Assembly: GCA_903844645.1 (NCBI GenBank)
Contig: CAIMUP010000010.1
Span: 1-64,000, forward strand
Reading direction: 5' to 3'
DNA: 64,000 bases
From: an uncultured Bacteroidota bacterium
GTDB taxonomy: Bacteria; Bacteroidota; Bacteroidia; AKYH767-A; JABDAW01
The position numbers and the translations under genes are program-made. Below are positions 736 to 61,430 of the stretch, piece by piece (the first letter of the stretch is position 1; the number at the start of each line of letters is the position of its first letter). The notes under the pieces are model-generated. The model ran no database searches. It saw nothing but the letters and a program-made list of their open reading frames with translations, and was not told the origin of the DNA.

Positions 736-840
736 ACTTTTTAAATTTTAATTGTTAATACTATATATTGTTTTTAGCTTTTGTCTAATAAATCTAAACT
801 CGGATACTGATTTCAGATTATTCCCTGCAAGTTCCGCGAT

Positions 841-1008
841 AGAACCTTGCGGTTCCATGATAGAACCTTGCGGTTCCATGATAGAACCTTGCGGTTCCAT
901 GATAGAACCTTGCGGTTCCATGATAGAACCTTGCGGTTCCATGATAGAACCTTGCGGTTCCGCGATAGAACCTTGCGGTTCCACGGTAGAACCTTGCGGT
1001 TCCACGGT
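841..1008. repeat. 21-bp array R1 (8 units)
   Basis: Eight consecutive 21-bp units start at 841, 862, 883, 904, 925, 946, 967 and 988, with degenerate half-units on both sides (830-840 and 1009-1016). The core GAACCTTGCGGTTC is a perfect inverted repeat around TTGC. Only the three-base linker (ATG, GCG, ACG) varies. The period is a multiple of three, so both strands show open frames (748-1155 minus, 752-1138 plus) that I regard as artefacts. It lies between two minus-strand genes. Confidence 0.95.
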
Positions 1009-1016
1009 AGAACTTC

Positions 1017-6517: not shown

Positions 6518-6727
6518 GGATGCCTTCCGACGTTCTCCTGATGGCATAAATAATTTTCAGGATGCCATCGGACGTTCTTCCGATGGCATAAATAATCTTC
6601 GGGATGCCTCCGGTCGTTCTCCCGATGGCACAAATAATCTTCACGATGGCATCGGTCGTTCTCCCGATGGCATAAATAATTTTCAGGATGCCTCCGGTCG
6701 TTCTCCCGATGCCATCCTGAAGATTAT
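6518..6727. repeat. 42-bp array R2 (5 units)
   Basis: Five 42-bp units (twice 21) begin at 6518, 6560, 6602, 6644 and 6686, each starting GGATGCC or a variant. Each contains an imperfect dyad of the type ATCGGACGTTCTTCCGAT and an AT-rich spacer (CATAAATAATTTTCA). From 6713 the sequence continues as an inverted copy (GATGCCATCCTGAAGATTAT), so direct and inverted units meet. It fills the divergent gap between the exporter and the sulfur operon. Confidence 0.92.
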
Positions 6728-6873
6728 TTGTGCCATCGGACGTTCTTCCGATGCCCTTTTTACGTTGTCATCGGACATTCTCCCGATGAGATTCCCGTTT
6801 TATAGCCCTATTAATTCGCAAGTTAATTTCCGAAATCTGACCTCCATCATTATTCCGGTATCCACAAATTTCG

Positions 6874-12347: not shown

Positions 12348-12411
12348 CGGGTTTTACACCTGAAAACCGCCTTTTATAACGGGAAAAAGTTCATGCAAGA
12401 CATGTTCCCCG
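12348..12411 (-). repeat. Shared array flank, copy at R3
   Basis: Read on the minus strand: CGGGGAACATGTCT (12398-12411), TTTCCCGTTATAAAA (12372-12386) and TTTTCAGGTGTAAAA (12352-12366). The same blocks in the same order lie next to arrays R4 (17288-17350) and R14 (54060-54122). It directly abuts the first R3 unit. Confidence 0.85.
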
Positions 12412-12662
12412 TGATGAAGGCTTTCAGCACAGTAGTGAAAGCTTTCCGTCCGGTGATGAAAGCTATCCATCTGGTGATGAAAGCTATCCGTCCCGTAGTG
12501 AAAGCTATCCGTCTGGTGGTGAAAGCTATCCGTCCGGTGATGAAAGCTATGCGTCCTATGATGAAAGCTATCCATCCCGTGATGAAAGCTATCCGTTCGG
12601 TGATGAAAGCTATCCATCCCGTGATGAAAGCTATCCGCCCGGTGGTGAAAGCTATTCATCCT
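12411..12662. repeat. 21-bp array R3 (12 units)
   Basis: Twelve units, exactly in phase, start at 12411, 12432, 12453 and so on to 12642. The consensus contains GTGATGAAAGCTATCC followed by a five-base part that alternates between CATCC- and GTCCG-like versions. It lies between the convergent dehydrogenase and argS genes. Both strands are open (a KAI-R-PVMK heptad on plus), which I attribute to 21 being a multiple of three. Confidence 0.95.
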
Positions 12663-17057: not shown

Positions 17058-17136
17058 GTTTCTTGGGAGCCACGAATTTCACGAATTAATTTCGGCTGAC
17101 GGCAGAAAATGAGCTATTTCCAGAATGAGAATCTTC

Positions 17137-17283
17137 TTGGTCGGGATGAGAAGTTCCTTGGTCGGGATGAGAAGCTCCTTGGTCGGGATGAGAAGCTTCT
17201 TGGTTGGGATGAGAAGCTTCTTGGTTGGGATGAGAGGCTCCTTGGTCGGGATGAGAAGCTCCTTGGTCGGGATGAGGAGCTTC
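17137..17283. repeat. 21-bp array R4 (7 units)
   Basis: Seven units start at 17137, 17158, 17179, 17200, 17221, 17242 and 17263, each TTGGTCGGGATGAGAAGC plus three bases; a partial unit precedes them (17121-17136). Some copies contain the palindrome GAAGCTTC. Located between two plus-strand genes. Confidence 0.95.
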
Positions 17284-21586: not shown

Positions 21587-21754
21587 AAAAGGACTTCTGG
21601 TTTTATGAAAAGGAGTTACGGTTTTGTTAAAACCGTAACTCCTTTTGGCAAAACCGGCTTTCATTTTCATAAAAGGAACTTTCATTTTGCCAAAAGGAGT
21701 TGTCCTTTTCTCAAAAGCATTTCTGCTTTTGGCAAAAACACAACTCCTTTTGAG
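21587..21754. repeat. 21-bp array R5 (8 divergent units)
   Basis: Eight consecutive 21-bp frames start at 21587, 21608, 21629, 21650, 21671, 21692, 21713 and 21734. Every unit has AAAA at positions 1-4 and TTTT at 15-18, while the ten bases between vary (for example GGAGTTACGG, CCGTAACTCC, GCATTTCTGC). Units 2 and 3 form an exact 18-bp hairpin (21608-21625 with 21629-21646). Located between two minus-strand genes. Confidence 0.88.
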
Positions 21755-29497: not shown

Positions 29498-29581
29498 CGA
29501 TGGATTTACGTAACGCTGCGATGGATTTACGTAACGCTGCGATGGATTTACGTAACGCTGCGATGGATTTACGTAACTCCC
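29498..29581. repeat. 21-bp array R7 (4 units)
   Basis: Units at 29498, 29519, 29540 and 29561, consensus CGATGGATTTACGTAACGC, near-identical. The core TTACGTAA is palindromic. Divergent gap between two surface-protein genes. To its right, 29594-29652 holds an AT-rich inverted repeat (TTTAAGGTTTAA against TTAAACCTTAAA). Confidence 0.93.
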
Positions 29582-39785: not shown

Positions 39786-39953
39786 GTTCACGTTTTATAA
39801 AACCGAGTTCACGGAATGGTAAACCGAGTTCACGGAATGACAAAACGAGTTCACGGAATGATAAACCGAGTTCACGTTTTGATGAAACGAGTTCACGGAA
39901 TGGTAAAACGTGTTCACGGAATGGTAAAACGTGTTCACGGAATGGTATAAAGT
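39786..39953. repeat. 21-bp array R10 (8 units)
   Basis: Units at 39786, 39807, 39828, 39849, 39870, 39891, 39912 and 39933, consensus GTTCACGGAATGGTAAAACG. CCGTGAACTCGG spans unit junctions as a short dyad (minus strand). Units 1 and 5 read GTTCACGTTTT, like the last type in R6. Lies between convergent recJ and gltA. A low-complexity spacer without features (39960-40211) follows. Confidence 0.95.
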
Positions 39954-44277: not shown

Positions 44278-44339
44278 TTCCGCGAAACCCTTAGATTTAT
44301 CTTATAAGTTTCCAAAACTTTCTCATAAGTCTTTAAGTT

Positions 44340-44672
44340 CTTCTCGTATCTCTTATTTTTCTTCACGTATCTCTGACTTTTCTTCACCTATCTTTGACCT
44401 TACTTCACATATCTCTGGTTTTTCTTCACATATCTCTGGCTTTTCTTCACATATCTCTGGCTTTTCTTCACATATCTCTGGTTTTTCTTCACATAATTGA
44501 GACTTTTCATCGAGTAAAAGTCTTACTTATGTGAAGTTTTTTCGTAAATATGTGAAGGTTTTAGGTGTAAATGTGAAGTTTTGCGCTACTCTTACGAGGA
44601 ACTTTGACCCTTCACAGAGAATAAGAGAAACTTCACAGGGAATAAAAGAAACTTCACGGGGAATAAGAAAAT
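44340..44672. repeat. 21-bp array R11 (direct, inverted, direct blocks)
   Basis: Eight direct units at 44340 to 44487 (CTTCACATATCTCTGG plus a T-rich end). GTGAAG, the complement of CTTCAC, then recurs at 44531, 44552 and 44573, exactly 21 apart. CTTCAC returns with a new tail (AGAGAATAAGAGAAA) at 44610, 44631 and 44652, again 21 apart. It lies between two convergent genes. Confidence 0.92.
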
Positions 44673-46750: not shown

Positions 46751-47326
46751 ATGAGAAAGAAAGGAATCTTTTGCCTCGAAGGACATTGGGAGAAAAACCT
46801 GACAACGAAGTCCACAGTGGAACCAATATTGAGCCTGCTGGAGAAGCAAGAGAAGATAAGATACATCCACCATAAATGCGCGACAAAGGAAGAGATAAAC
46901 TTCTTGCTCACCAAGTGGTCGCAGAGTTTATATAAGAGTTATCCTATCTTATACTTTGCGTTTCACGGTCGCCCGGGCGAGTTCGAGATTAACCCTAAGG
47001 AGAATTATACTCTGATAGACCTCGCGACAGTGTTAGAAGGAAAATGCACCAACCGCGTCATCTTTTTCGCGGCATGCAAAACCTTGGATATTCCTAAAAG
47101 AAAGATAAAACAATTCCTCAAAACCACTAACGCCCTCGCCGTCTGCGGGTACAATGACGAGGTCGATTGGATGGTGTCCACAGCCTTCGAGTTGCTGGTG
47201 TTGTTTGCCTTGCAGAACAATGTTTTCGATGGGCGCGGGATTAATTCGGTGCGCAGCAAGATACAGACCGGCTTTTCCCGCATCTCCGACGAATTGGAAT
47301 TTATCATGGTTACCAAGAACGATTGA
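46751..47326 (+). CDS. Caspase/CHAT-like protein, unknown function
   Basis: 191 residues, cytoplasmic. After a beta-strand (SYPILYFAFHGRPG) comes His72-Gly73, then LIDLATVLEGKCTNRVIFFAACKTL, with Cys109 at the end of the next strand. A His-Gly after one hydrophobic strand and a Cys after the next, about 37 residues on, is the dyad layout of the caspase-like CHAT/clan CD peptidases, as in the short stand-alone DUF6642-type proteins. There is no sensor or effector domain on the chain. Whether it is active is not known. A second copy of any partner is not in the window. Confidence 0.72.
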   Translation: MRKKGIFCLEGHWEKNLTTKSTVEPILSLLEKQEKIRYIHHKCATKEEINFLLTKWSQSLYKSYPILYFAFHGRPGEFEINPKENYTLIDLATVLEGKCTNRVIFFAACKTLDIPKRKIKQFLKTTNALAVCGYNDEVDWMVSTAFELLVLFALQNNVFDGRGINSVRSKIQTGFSRISDELEFIMVTKND

Positions 47327-48154: not shown

Positions 48155-48211
48155 TCATTTATGGAACAACTCATTCGGCAATGCGGCATAAAATACTATT
48201 GGAAGAAAATA

Positions 48212-48219
48212 TATATTTG
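48212..48219 (+). promoter_or_regulatory. -7 box touching the CBS start (leaderless?)
   Basis: TATATTTG ends only 4 bp before the ATG at 48224. Transcription from it would begin at or inside the start codon. Confidence 0.5.
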
Positions 48220-48223
48220 CGCC

Positions 48224-49588
48224 ATGTATTACAAAAACATTTTAGGAGCTATCGGACACACGCCGATGGTGAAATTAAACAAAGTAGTCGAAGGAATATC
48301 GGCTACCGTACTCGCAAAAGTCGAGACTACGAACCCAGGCAATTCTATTAAAGACAGAATGGCGTTGAAGATGGTGGAAGATGCCGAAAAAGCCGGCTTA
48401 TTAAAGCCTGGCAGCACCATTATCGAGGGTACTTCAGGCAATACCGGCATGGGTTTGGCAATAGCCGCCATCGTGAAGGGGTATAAGTGCATCTTCGTAA
48501 CTACGGACAAGCAATCGAAGGAGAAAGTGGACGCCCTCAAGGCATTTGGTGCCGATGTGGTCATCTGTCCAACCAACGTGGACCCTGAAGATGACAGGTC
48601 GTACTACTCGGTCGCTGCCCGTTTGAATAAAGAGATTCCGAATTCCTATCATCCCAATCAATATGACAACTTATCCAACACCATTGCCAATTACGAACAG
48701 ACCGGACCGGAGATATGGGAGCAAACCGATGGCAAAATAACCCACCTCGTAGTGGGGGTCGGGACGGGCGGCACCATCAGCGGCACGGCGAAGTATCTTA
48801 AAGAGAAAAATCCTGACATTAAAATCTGGGGAATAGATACCTACGGCTCTGTTTTTAAGAAATATAAGGAAACCGGCATCTTCGACAAGAAGGAAATCTA
48901 CCCATACGTTACCGAAGGCATCGGCGAAGACTTCCTCCCAAAGAATGTGAACTTCGACCTGATAGATTTATTCGAGAAAGTAACCGACAAAGATGCTGCT
49001 TTAATGACCCGCGAAATAGTTCGTAAGGAAGGCATCTGGGTGGGCAATTCTGCCGGCTCTGCCATCGCGGGATTGCTGCAACTAAAGGATAAACTGAAGC
49101 CTACCGACCTCGTCGTCGTCATCTTTCACGACCACGGAAGCCGATATTTGGCAAAAATATTCAACGACGACTGGATGCGGATGAAAGGCTTCATAGATAA
49201 GAAGGGAATGACCGCGATAGACCTCGTTTCGAGCCAGCAACAAACCGAATTAATCACCTTAGACAAGACGGATACCATTGCGCAAGCCATCAAGATAATA
49301 ACAGAGATGGACATTTCGCAGATACCGATTACGAATCGCGATAGAATCGTCGGTTCATTAAGCGAAAGCTGGGTGTTTAAGAACATTTTGGAGAACCCCG
49401 ACATGAAAGATAACAGCATCGAAAGCATCATGCAGCCTGCCTTCCCTTTTGTGGATTCTACTACGCCTATTGATGTGCTTTCTAAGATGATTTCTCCCGA
49501 TAATCCTGCCGTATTGGTCAAGGATTTCAAACAAAACAAGACTTTTATCATCTCTCTCTCCGACATTGTGGAGGCGATAGCGAAATAA
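48224..49588 (+). CDS. Cystathionine beta-synthase, PLP plus CBS domains
   Basis: 454 residues from the ATG at 48224-48226 (MYYKNILGAIGHTPMVKLNK), which matches the family N-terminus; the frame to 48161 is upstream of the -7 box. Fold type II PLP enzyme with the Lys in GNSIKDRMAL, the phosphate loop EGTSGNTGMG and GVGTGGTISG. Residues ~330-454 form two CBS regulatory domains (TAIDLVSSQQQTELITLDKT, ISQIPITNRDRIVG). It makes cystathionine from homocysteine and serine, or acts as cysteine synthase; the CBS domains favour the former. A hairpin terminator overlaps its stop codon. Confidence 0.9.
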   Translation: MYYKNILGAIGHTPMVKLNKVVEGISATVLAKVETTNPGNSIKDRMALKMVEDAEKAGLLKPGSTIIEGTSGNTGMGLAIAAIVKGYKCIFVTTDKQSKEKVDALKAFGADVVICPTNVDPEDDRSYYSVAARLNKEIPNSYHPNQYDNLSNTIANYEQTGPEIWEQTDGKITHLVVGVGTGGTISGTAKYLKEKNPDIKIWGIDTYGSVFKKYKETGIFDKKEIYPYVTEGIGEDFLPKNVNFDLIDLFEKVTDKDAALMTREIVRKEGIWVGNSAGSAIAGLLQLKDKLKPTDLVVVIFHDHGSRYLAKIFNDDWMRMKGFIDKKGMTAIDLVSSQQQTELITLDKTDTIAQAIKIITEMDISQIPITNRDRIVGSLSESWVFKNILENPDMKDNSIESIMQPAFPFVDSTTPIDVLSKMISPDNPAVLVKDFKQNKTFIISLSDIVEAIAK

Positions 49589-49608
49589 GCCGATATTCGG
49601 CTTCATTT
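49587..49608 (+). terminator. Terminator overlapping the CBS stop codon
   Basis: Stem AAGCCGA / TCGGCTT with TAT loop, followed by CATTTTT. The TAA stop lies in the left arm. Confidence 0.75.
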
Positions 49609-49772
49609 TTCCCTTCTTCATAGTATCAAATGCCGCATTGATAGGGGCATTCCCGATAGGTATACTCCTATTCTGTCATTCCTATTTATTCATCCCTTAT
49701 TAATGGTTATTTATCCATTAATTAGGGTTAATTAGAGCCTTTTTCCTACTCCTGATATGGAAATGGATTACG

Positions 49773-50042
49773 GTTATCGGGGTACAATGATCTTACTGCG
49801 GTGTAGGGTTACTATAGATTGGTGTATATCTATCAAAAATTGGTGTATAATAAGTTCAGATTGGTGTATATCTATCAAAAATCGGTGCGTTTAAAACCTA
49901 AATCCACGTGGTTTCACAATATATTCGCACCAATCTTTGACATATTCGCACCAATTCGAGTTAGATTCGCACCAATCTTTGACAGATTCGCACCAATCTA
50001 TAGTAACCCTACACCGATGTAGGATCATTGTATCCCGATAAC
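49773..50042. repeat. 270-bp near-palindrome R13 with 21-bp units
   Basis: Outer arms of 52 bp (49773-49824 and 49991-50042) are inverted copies with 48 of 52 matching. Inside, four direct units TTGGTG (or TCGGTG) start at 49819, 49840, 49861 and 49882. Four inverted units (CACCAA at 49928, 49949, 49970, 49991) are again 21 bp apart. The centre (~49895-49920) is CACGTG. Located between two plus-strand genes. Confidence 0.93.
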
Positions 50043-53810: not shown

Positions 53811-54062
53811 CCTCCCAGTTCAAACTATGTCCCTCCCAGTTCAAACTGTGTCCCCCCCAGTTCAAACAATGTCCCTCCCAGTTCAAACTGTGTCCCTCCC
53901 AGTTCAAACAATGTCCCTCCCAGTTCAAACTGTGTCCCTCCCAGTTCAAACAATGTCCCTCCCAGTTCAAATTGTGTCCCTCCCAGTTCAAACTGTGTCC
54001 CTCCCAGTTCAAATTGTGTCCCTCCCAGTTCAAATTGTGTCCCTCCCAGTTCAAACTGTCCG
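53811..54062. repeat. 21-bp array R14 (12 units)
   Basis: Twelve units from 53811 to 54042, consensus CCTCCCAGTTCAAACTGTG, with CAGTT/AACTG as a dyad. The units alternate between ACTGTG, ACAATG and ATTGTG endings, partly in blocks. Divergent gap. Confidence 0.96.
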
Positions 54063-57459: not shown

Positions 57460-57577
57460 ACCGCATCGGAATTCACAATCCAAGGTTTAATTCCCCAAGA
57501 AGCTTGTTATTAAACTTGAAAGCGGAAGGACGTTTCAGGATTTGTGGGCATTAAATTGGGCTTACTTTCTCCAATAC

Positions 57578-57745
57578 TTGAGTTCAATTCTCCAATACTT
57601 GAGTTCAAATCTCCGTGATTTGAGTTCATGGCAAGAAGATTTGAGTTCAATTCTCCAGGATATGAGTTCAATTCTTCGTGATTTGAGTTCAAATTTCCAA
57701 GACTTGAGTTCAAATCTTGGAGATTTGAACTCAAGTCTCCGAGAA
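57578..57745. repeat. 21-bp array R15 (8 units)
   Basis: Eight units from 57578 to 57725. TTGAGTTCAA (TTGA/TCAA dyad) is conserved in each, with a variable 11-base tail. The last (57725) is TTGAACTC, inverted. Convergent gap. Confidence 0.93.
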
Positions 57746-57820
57746 AGTAAGCCATATTTCATCGCCATTAACTGCCTTCAGCCTTTCGTTTCAGGGTTTA
57801 ATTAGGTATGTTTAATAAAA

Positions 57821-61220: not shown

Positions 61221-61430
61221 ACTAACTATGTTTTGCCGAAACATAGTTAGTTTGAACCCGGCACTAACTATGTTTCGGTAAAACATAGCTAGTTTGAACC
61301 CGGCACTAACTATGTTTCGGCAAAACATAGCTAGTTTGAACCCGGCACTAACTATGTTTCGGCAAAACATAGTTAGTTTGAGCCAGGAACTAACTATGTT
61401 TCGACAAAACATAGTTAGTTTAACCCTGCC
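61221..61430. repeat. 42-bp array R16 (5 units)
   Basis: Five 42-bp units at 61221, 61263, 61305, 61347 and 61389. Each contains CTAACTATGTTT and AAACATAGTTAG as near-perfect arms around a CGGC/TGCC loop, then TTTGAACCCGGC. It reads as two 21-bp halves. Convergent gap. Confidence 0.96.

Follow-up and report, generated by a model that had tools for sequence, protein, structure and literature searches.

The quasi-palindrome at positions 49773-50042 of the window (the whole 64,000-nucleotide stretch of DNA that was analysed) belongs to a genome-wide class of tandem arrays with a period of 21 bp, a class that is restricted to gene gaps and to one genus, is frequently palindromic, and turns over between species. 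The palindrome fits this class in its period of 21, its intergenic position, and its repeat axes, which differ by multiples of 21. On balance, we consider the probable explanation to be recurrent local amplification with a step of two helical turns, combined with inverted copying that is tolerated without SbcCD, and followed by near-neutral decay. The class was characterised in the genome holding the window (G000) and in two further genomes of the same genus (G001 and G002); these are draft assemblies, apparently metagenome bins, of which a part was sampled in each case (G002 is 58% complete), and genes were taken from simple longest-ORF calls.

The palindrome itself is far beyond chance. An earlier note on this DNA had described a dyad with CACGTG at its centre and outer arms (49773-49824 and 49991-50042) that pair at 48 of 52 positions, and all of these were confirmed where it had placed them, with the axis between 49907 and 49908 (Table 1). 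Over the entire arm, complementary bases face each other at 101 of 135 positions (74.8%), the inside pairing less well than the outer arms, and the 34 mismatches comprise 9 G-T, 11 A-C, and 14 others. A YGGTG-like core recurs at six lattice positions per arm with exact 21-bp spacing; the four direct and four inverted units reported earlier are present, and the lattice is wider than was then recognised. Between mirror partners, the units agree at 17, 21, 16, 11, 15, and 12 of 21 positions, the left-arm unit 49799-49819 being identical to its mirror 49996-50016. The left inner array has the order A-B-A followed by a diverged inner unit (49883), and TRF reports period 21 at 49818-49887 for the left inner array and at 49923-49999 for the right. 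BLAST found no second copy of the palindrome in its own genome or in 20 relatives, and there was none in phage records. The palindrome sits in a 599-bp gap whose flanking genes, PALP/CBS upstream and patatin-like downstream, are both on the + strand; a gene for a DUF6642 protein lies two genes upstream of the palindrome (46751-47326).

Table 1. Coordinates of the palindrome and its parts, of neighbouring genes, of the other arrays in the window, and of dispersed repeat sites.
Feature	Position	Strand	Detail
Upstream gene, PALP (PLP-dependent) enzyme with CBS domain	48161..49588	+	Pfam PF00291, PF00571
Intrinsic-terminator-like hairpin directly 3' of upstream gene	49587..49603	+	
Second short 21-bp array, same gap as palindrome	49686..49734	.	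2.3 copies
Whole quasi-palindrome	49773..50042	.	centre CCACGTGG, axis at CACGTG
Left outer arm	49773..49824	+	holds diverged lattice units 49778-49798, 49799-49819
Left unit starts	49778, 49799, 49820, 49841, 49862, 49883		21-bp lattice
Left inner array	49820..49903	+	four 21-bp units, core TGGTGTAT
Right inner array	49912..49995	-	four inverted 21-bp units, + strand core ATTCGCACCAAT
Right outer arm	49991..50042	-	48/52 complementary to left arm
Downstream gene, patatin-like phospholipase, 764 aa	50188..52482	+	Pfam PF01734
21-bp array	831..1013	.	unit GTTCCATGATAGAACCTTGCG; TRF
Mosaic 21/42/84-bp array with inverted copies	6518..6755	.	TRF
21/42/63-bp array	12408..12661	.	TRF
21-bp array	17125..17281	.	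TRF
21-bp array	21587..21751	.	18-bp element also present, at lattice spacing, as an exact reverse complement
Array, 3.8 copies, 100% matches	29498..29577	.	TRF
21-bp array	39798..39947	.	TRF
Three adjacent 21-bp arrays	44338..44668	.	TRF
Array, 11.9 copies of CCTCCCAGTTCAAACTGTGTC	53811..54059	.	TRF
21/63-bp array	57567..57744	.	palindromic arms 57545-57649 / 57663-57767
42-bp array	61221..61426	.	every unit a hairpin ACTAACTATGTTT..AAACATAGTTAGT
Dispersed repeat sites (~44-50 bp)	L034:3463-3638, L051:4646-4899, L181:7888-8182, L047:11767-12352, others		

The suggestion that the palindrome could fold as one hairpin is borne out on either strand: the predicted RNA folds reach -139.7 kcal/mol for the + strand (z -17.4) and -142.5 kcal/mol for the - strand (z -20.5), and the single-strand DNA fold reaches -73.5 kcal/mol (z -14.5), in each case with 0 of 200 shuffles attaining the value. 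A fold of such stability on both strands would be consistent with the long hairpin of a transcript being the functional object, as a terminator, an RNA stabiliser, or double-stranded RNA. We regard this as highly improbable, since there is no Rfam match at the palindrome, arrays are present in convergent and divergent as well as tandem gaps, and the upstream gene has a terminator-like hairpin of its own; the palindrome lies ~170 bp beyond that hairpin and so need not be the terminator of this gene. Selection for RNA pairing should also favour G-U over A-C among the dyad mismatches, whereas the counts are 75 and 76, respectively, in tandem gaps oriented to transcription, and 187 and 219 over all gaps. 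Based on this lack of G-U preference, the symmetry of the arrays looks to be at the DNA level.

The palindrome does not stand alone in its genome. TRF returns 32 rows for the window alone, with a period that is nearly always 21 or its multiples, and 1.06 Mb sampled from G000 contain 268 merged tandem arrays (0.254 per kb), with periods of 21, 42, or 63 bp and unit sequences that are mostly locus-specific. In a 765-kb subset of G000, 169 of 191 arrays are intergenic; most of those called within genes are short or coincide with the ends of crude gene calls. Of the gaps between genes in G000, 92 of 110 that measure 400 bp or more hold an array, compared with 1 of 273 that are shorter than 150 bp. 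In G000, the multiples of 21 are the only lags at which the pooled intergenic autocorrelation peaks (0.402, 0.406, 0.370, 0.379, 0.342, and 0.357 at 21 to 126, on a base of ~0.265), and the peaks in G001 and G002 likewise fall at multiples of 21. In G000 and G001, the even multiples (42, 84, 126) exceed the adjacent odd ones, hinting at a 42-bp higher-order step in the arrays of these two genomes. Repeats in G002 also occur at periods 14, 18, 36, and 54, which are less marked in G000. Counting arrays of at least 84 bp, the density is ~204 per Mb; extrapolated from the sample, this class would amount to roughly a thousand arrays per genome. Contig ends in G000 fall within arrays in 36 of 63 cases, compared with 7.6% at random, which indicates that longer arrays exist and break the assembly; because arrays break short-read assemblies, their number and length are underestimated. 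A segment coding for a 7-aa repeat was rejected, because arrays have 0 to 6 stop-free frames and none is kept throughout. A CRISPR array is not indicated either, the variable parts of the units being homologous to each other and both orientations being present.

Misassembly of repeats, which are error-prone in a 143-contig assembly that is apparently a metagenome bin, is hardly credible as the source of the palindrome: the two arms disagree at 25% of positions and each has variants of its own, three separate assemblies show this class, and contigs tend to break off in arrays rather than arrays being produced by assembly.

The period looks to have been set at the birth of each array, rather than the spacing having been kept by selection. 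Young arrays (at least 90% match and at least 3 copies) in G000 already have the period, with 95 at 21, 23 at 42, and 2 at 63, the other listed periods having 1-2 each; two-copy repeats likewise show an excess at 21 and 42. In diverged arrays the indel:substitution ratio is 0.08-0.095, and simulated decay passed through the same program recovers 0.08-0.095 for a true ratio of ~0.1. Variation is distributed evenly along the unit (invariant columns: 13.09 observed, 13.45 expected; 69 arrays), and a conserved core per unit was accordingly rejected as a general rule; the exceptions, which have a conserved core and a variable remainder, are the window palindrome, L047:6030-6262, and L190:6774-6917. 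Young arrays that are already at the period, even variation, and decay-like indels together favour a step fixed at duplication over selection. Two turns of B-DNA measure 21 bp; our equating of the step with two helical turns is drawn from this number.

The main rival, which we judge rather unlikely, is that an architectural protein (nucleoid-associated or regulatory) binds a single face of the DNA every two turns, with selection favouring 21-bp spacing and dyad sites in gaps. Such a protein-bound lattice would account for a period of two B-DNA turns, for unit-level dyad symmetry above that of shuffles, for the location of arrays in gaps (approximately central for the palindromic ones), and for the conserved core and variable remainder of the window palindrome and L047:6030-6262; a palindrome kept via compensatory change in a conserved orthologous array (see below) is also in its favour. 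However, there is no motif common to the units of different arrays, variation is even across the 21 columns of the 69 arrays, the indel ratio resembles that of simulated decay, and arrays have been gained and lost between sister species.

Palindromy is a trait of the class. Among gaps of at least 200 bp, an inverted-repeat score of at least 20 was reached by 73 of 236, 15 of 108, and 41 of 120 in the three genus genomes; in order relatives 0 of 28 gaps reached it, and in outgroups 4 of 189. The arms of several arrays measure 90-160 bp, their axis lying close to the middle of the gap, and the window palindrome is the fourth by score in the 765-kb subset. A comparison of array gaps with dinucleotide shuffles overstates palindromy; tests at the level of the unit are fairer, because periodic DNA multiplies a chance dyad. 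By this fairer test, consensus units have more dyad pairs than their shuffles (5.91 vs 5.37 for 21-mers, 11.65 vs 9.81 for 42-mers, and 17.24 vs 13.51 for 63-mers). Across 22 palindromic arrays, the agreement between mirrored rows is 73% (a figure somewhat inflated by choosing the best axis), compared with 55-56% for rows displaced by 21, 62% for rows displaced by 42, and 26% off the lattice. In the window palindrome, the A-B-A unit variants occur in mirrored order in both arms, which indicates that the array existed before the inversion and was copied in inverted orientation. The variants TGTATA (left) and TGCGAA (right) are specific to their arms and spread after the inversion. Thus, of the history proposed in the earlier note, inverted duplication followed by slippage, the inverted duplication stands, but the order is reversed, since the array predates the inversion.

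We propose that a local DNA-synthesis or repair process would re-copy DNA of any sequence in a step of two helical turns, giving birth to an array, and that occasional hairpin or template-switch events would copy an existing array in inverted orientation. The resulting palindromes would survive without SbcCD, and units would be partly homogenised within each arm but would otherwise undergo almost neutral decay. At 49773-50042, an A-B-A array of 21-bp units would have been copied inverted around CACGTG, along with the outer 52 bp, with TGTATA and TGCGAA then spreading inside their own arms. Inverted copying is supported by the excess of unit dyads at 21, 42, and 63 and by the mirrored unit order. 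Homogenisation is supported by the GC of the arrays, at 0.42 compared with 0.36 in other intergenic DNA; recurrent gene conversion would fit this difference, although other causes could also explain it. Across G000, G001, and G002, the G+C of arrays is 6-8 points above that of other intergenic DNA. Against this proposal, genes contain hardly any arrays, even though a duplication of 21 bp would not shift the reading frame; selection, or a trigger specific to gaps, is therefore needed in addition.

The earlier note held that the upkeep of so long a palindrome needs an explanation. In Escherichia coli, the hairpin that a 246-bp palindrome forms in the chromosome is cut by SbcCD, and inverted duplications become possible when SbcCD and RecA are both absent (PMC3315005). 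SbcD (TIGR00619) was not found above cut-off in 41 genomes of the order, nor was SbcD_C (PF12320) in 21 genomes of the order, and a single genome of the order has a passing match to the SbcC Walker B domain (PF13558); the same profile searches were positive in control genomes, Bacteroides included. With this nuclease undetected in the order, tolerance of the palindrome needs no special explanation. SbcCD is also undetected in relatives that have no arrays; its absence is thus permissive only, and its loss was rejected as the sole cause. A diverged functional equivalent of SbcCD in the order is possible. Palindromic arrays in genomes without detected SbcCD provide a test of whether that nuclease limits long palindromes elsewhere.

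The same 21-bp lattice was found in both other genus genomes examined. The sister genus yielded one array in the 45 kb sampled, two other genomes of the order yielded none, and the 21-bp signal was not found in pooled order relatives (258 kb) or in other Bacteroidota and other bacteria (1.3 Mb). Within the genus, six orthologous array-bearing gaps were compared with those of sister species. Four are array-free in the sister species, including the window locus, which in G001 is a short gap without an array and gave no usable homology when the two gaps were aligned. One gap has an unrelated 21-bp unit in the sister species, and the remaining one has a 42-bp array common to G000 and G002 (L044:5841-6172 and L155:10137-10366), inverted relative to the flanking genes. 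The palindromic half of its 42-bp unit has undergone a compensatory change (CCAGAA/TTCTGG compared with CCTGAA/TTCAGG), which hints at constraint on this array.

With head-to-tail units of 10-200 bp in at least four copies, the palindrome can be classed as a prokaryotic satellite or minisatellite, its TRF copy number being ~3.3 + 3.7, one figure per orientation, and the lattice units counted by eye being six in each arm. Prokaryotic satellites have been described as having units of this length and copy number, many of them unique in sequence and of local origin (Subirana and Messeguer, 2019; PMC6749651). The arrays described here are likewise tandem, of local origin, and with many unique units, but differ from those satellites in that they repeat, with few exceptions, every 21 bp or at a multiple of that length, nearly all are intergenic, and many have inverted halves. 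They are also denser, at ~204 per Mb compared with at most 23 per Mb for the bacteria tabulated in that study (89 per Mb in Methanosarcina), a rough comparison given that the criteria differ.

BrickBuilt of Porphyromonas gingivalis is a single unit family at 19 loci, with a leader, a tail, and terminal inverted repeats (PMC4596501). It resembles the present arrays as an intergenic minisatellite of Bacteroidota in which long stem-loops are possible; unlike BrickBuilt, with its 23-bp unit, the arrays have a period of 21, mostly locus-specific units, and no terminal repeats or target duplications that could be found. BrickBuilt, in which the minisatellite lies inside a MITE, is the precedent for reading the arrays as MITE-like elements with an internal minisatellite, the 52-bp arms then being terminal inverted repeats. 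This would be consistent with outer arms that pair better (48/52) than the inside, and with the units or stretches of up to 572 bp that some arrays at different loci share. We nevertheless hold it to be improbable: BLAST detects the window palindrome only once in the genome, most units differ between loci, the edges of eight copy pairs show no target-site duplication or shared terminal repeat, and no duplication is seen in the sequence flanking 49773 and 50042. As read from the edges, the long homology between some copy pairs seems to include neighbouring gene sequence. Reverse transcriptase was not found in G000 and was rejected as a driver of the arrays. A Y1 transposase (Y1_Tnp; RAYT) gave one partial, weak match in G000 (E 1.6e-12, 113-aa frame); with no more matches than in array-free relatives, it is not enriched alongside the arrays.

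Borg repeats are perfect, vary in unit length, and lie in genes in about half of cases (PMC9879509). The present arrays share with them a genome-wide distribution, locus-specific sequence, fast evolution, and confinement to a single lineage, but have one period, imperfect units, intergenic positions, and inverted halves. REP, BIME, and REPIN sequences, and other bacterial intergenic palindromes, are dispersed units that share a consensus across loci. The likeness to these lies in dispersed intergenic palindromic units (REPINs: PMC3116915), but here it is the spacing that is shared and not the sequence. Such an identity does not fit the arrays, as there is no shared palindromic consensus and the units are mostly locus-specific. 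STRR families consist of repeated heptamers with a constant period. Heptamer repeats are found in cyanobacteria and relatives (PMC4679880), and resemble the arrays in having a fixed unit length, many loci, and several lineages; unlike the arrays, they have a period of 7 and a small set of fixed sequences.

The periods of bacterial tandem repeats are normally diverse, with slippage as the explanation. Around a thousand unlike arrays that share one 21-bp step point instead to a physical ruler for duplication, or to a DNA-bound structure with two-turn spacing. Tentatively, it is possible that the genus has a DNA-copying or repair activity with a two-turn ruler, which would seed and extend arrays of any sequence in gene gaps and in both orientations; if so, spacing would be passed on and the sequence would be free to vary. 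In the open-access literature searched, no publication was found that describes a 21-bp step spanning a genus and independent of sequence; the closest published cases are prokaryotic satellites in general, BrickBuilt, Borg repeats, and heptamer repeats.

Several other repeats were encountered in these genomes. A dispersed repeat of ~44-50 bp is scattered over many gaps and often has no 21-bp array beside it, and a separate family of frequent k-mers contains ATCCTGACAGGCAATCGCCCCTTCGCG. Next to the array at 61221-61426 of the window, a stretch of 150-190 bp is found again in six or more further gaps of this genome. At L188:14873-15544, 126-bp repeats (6 x 21) lie in a reading frame of ~3007 aa, which probably encodes a repeat protein.
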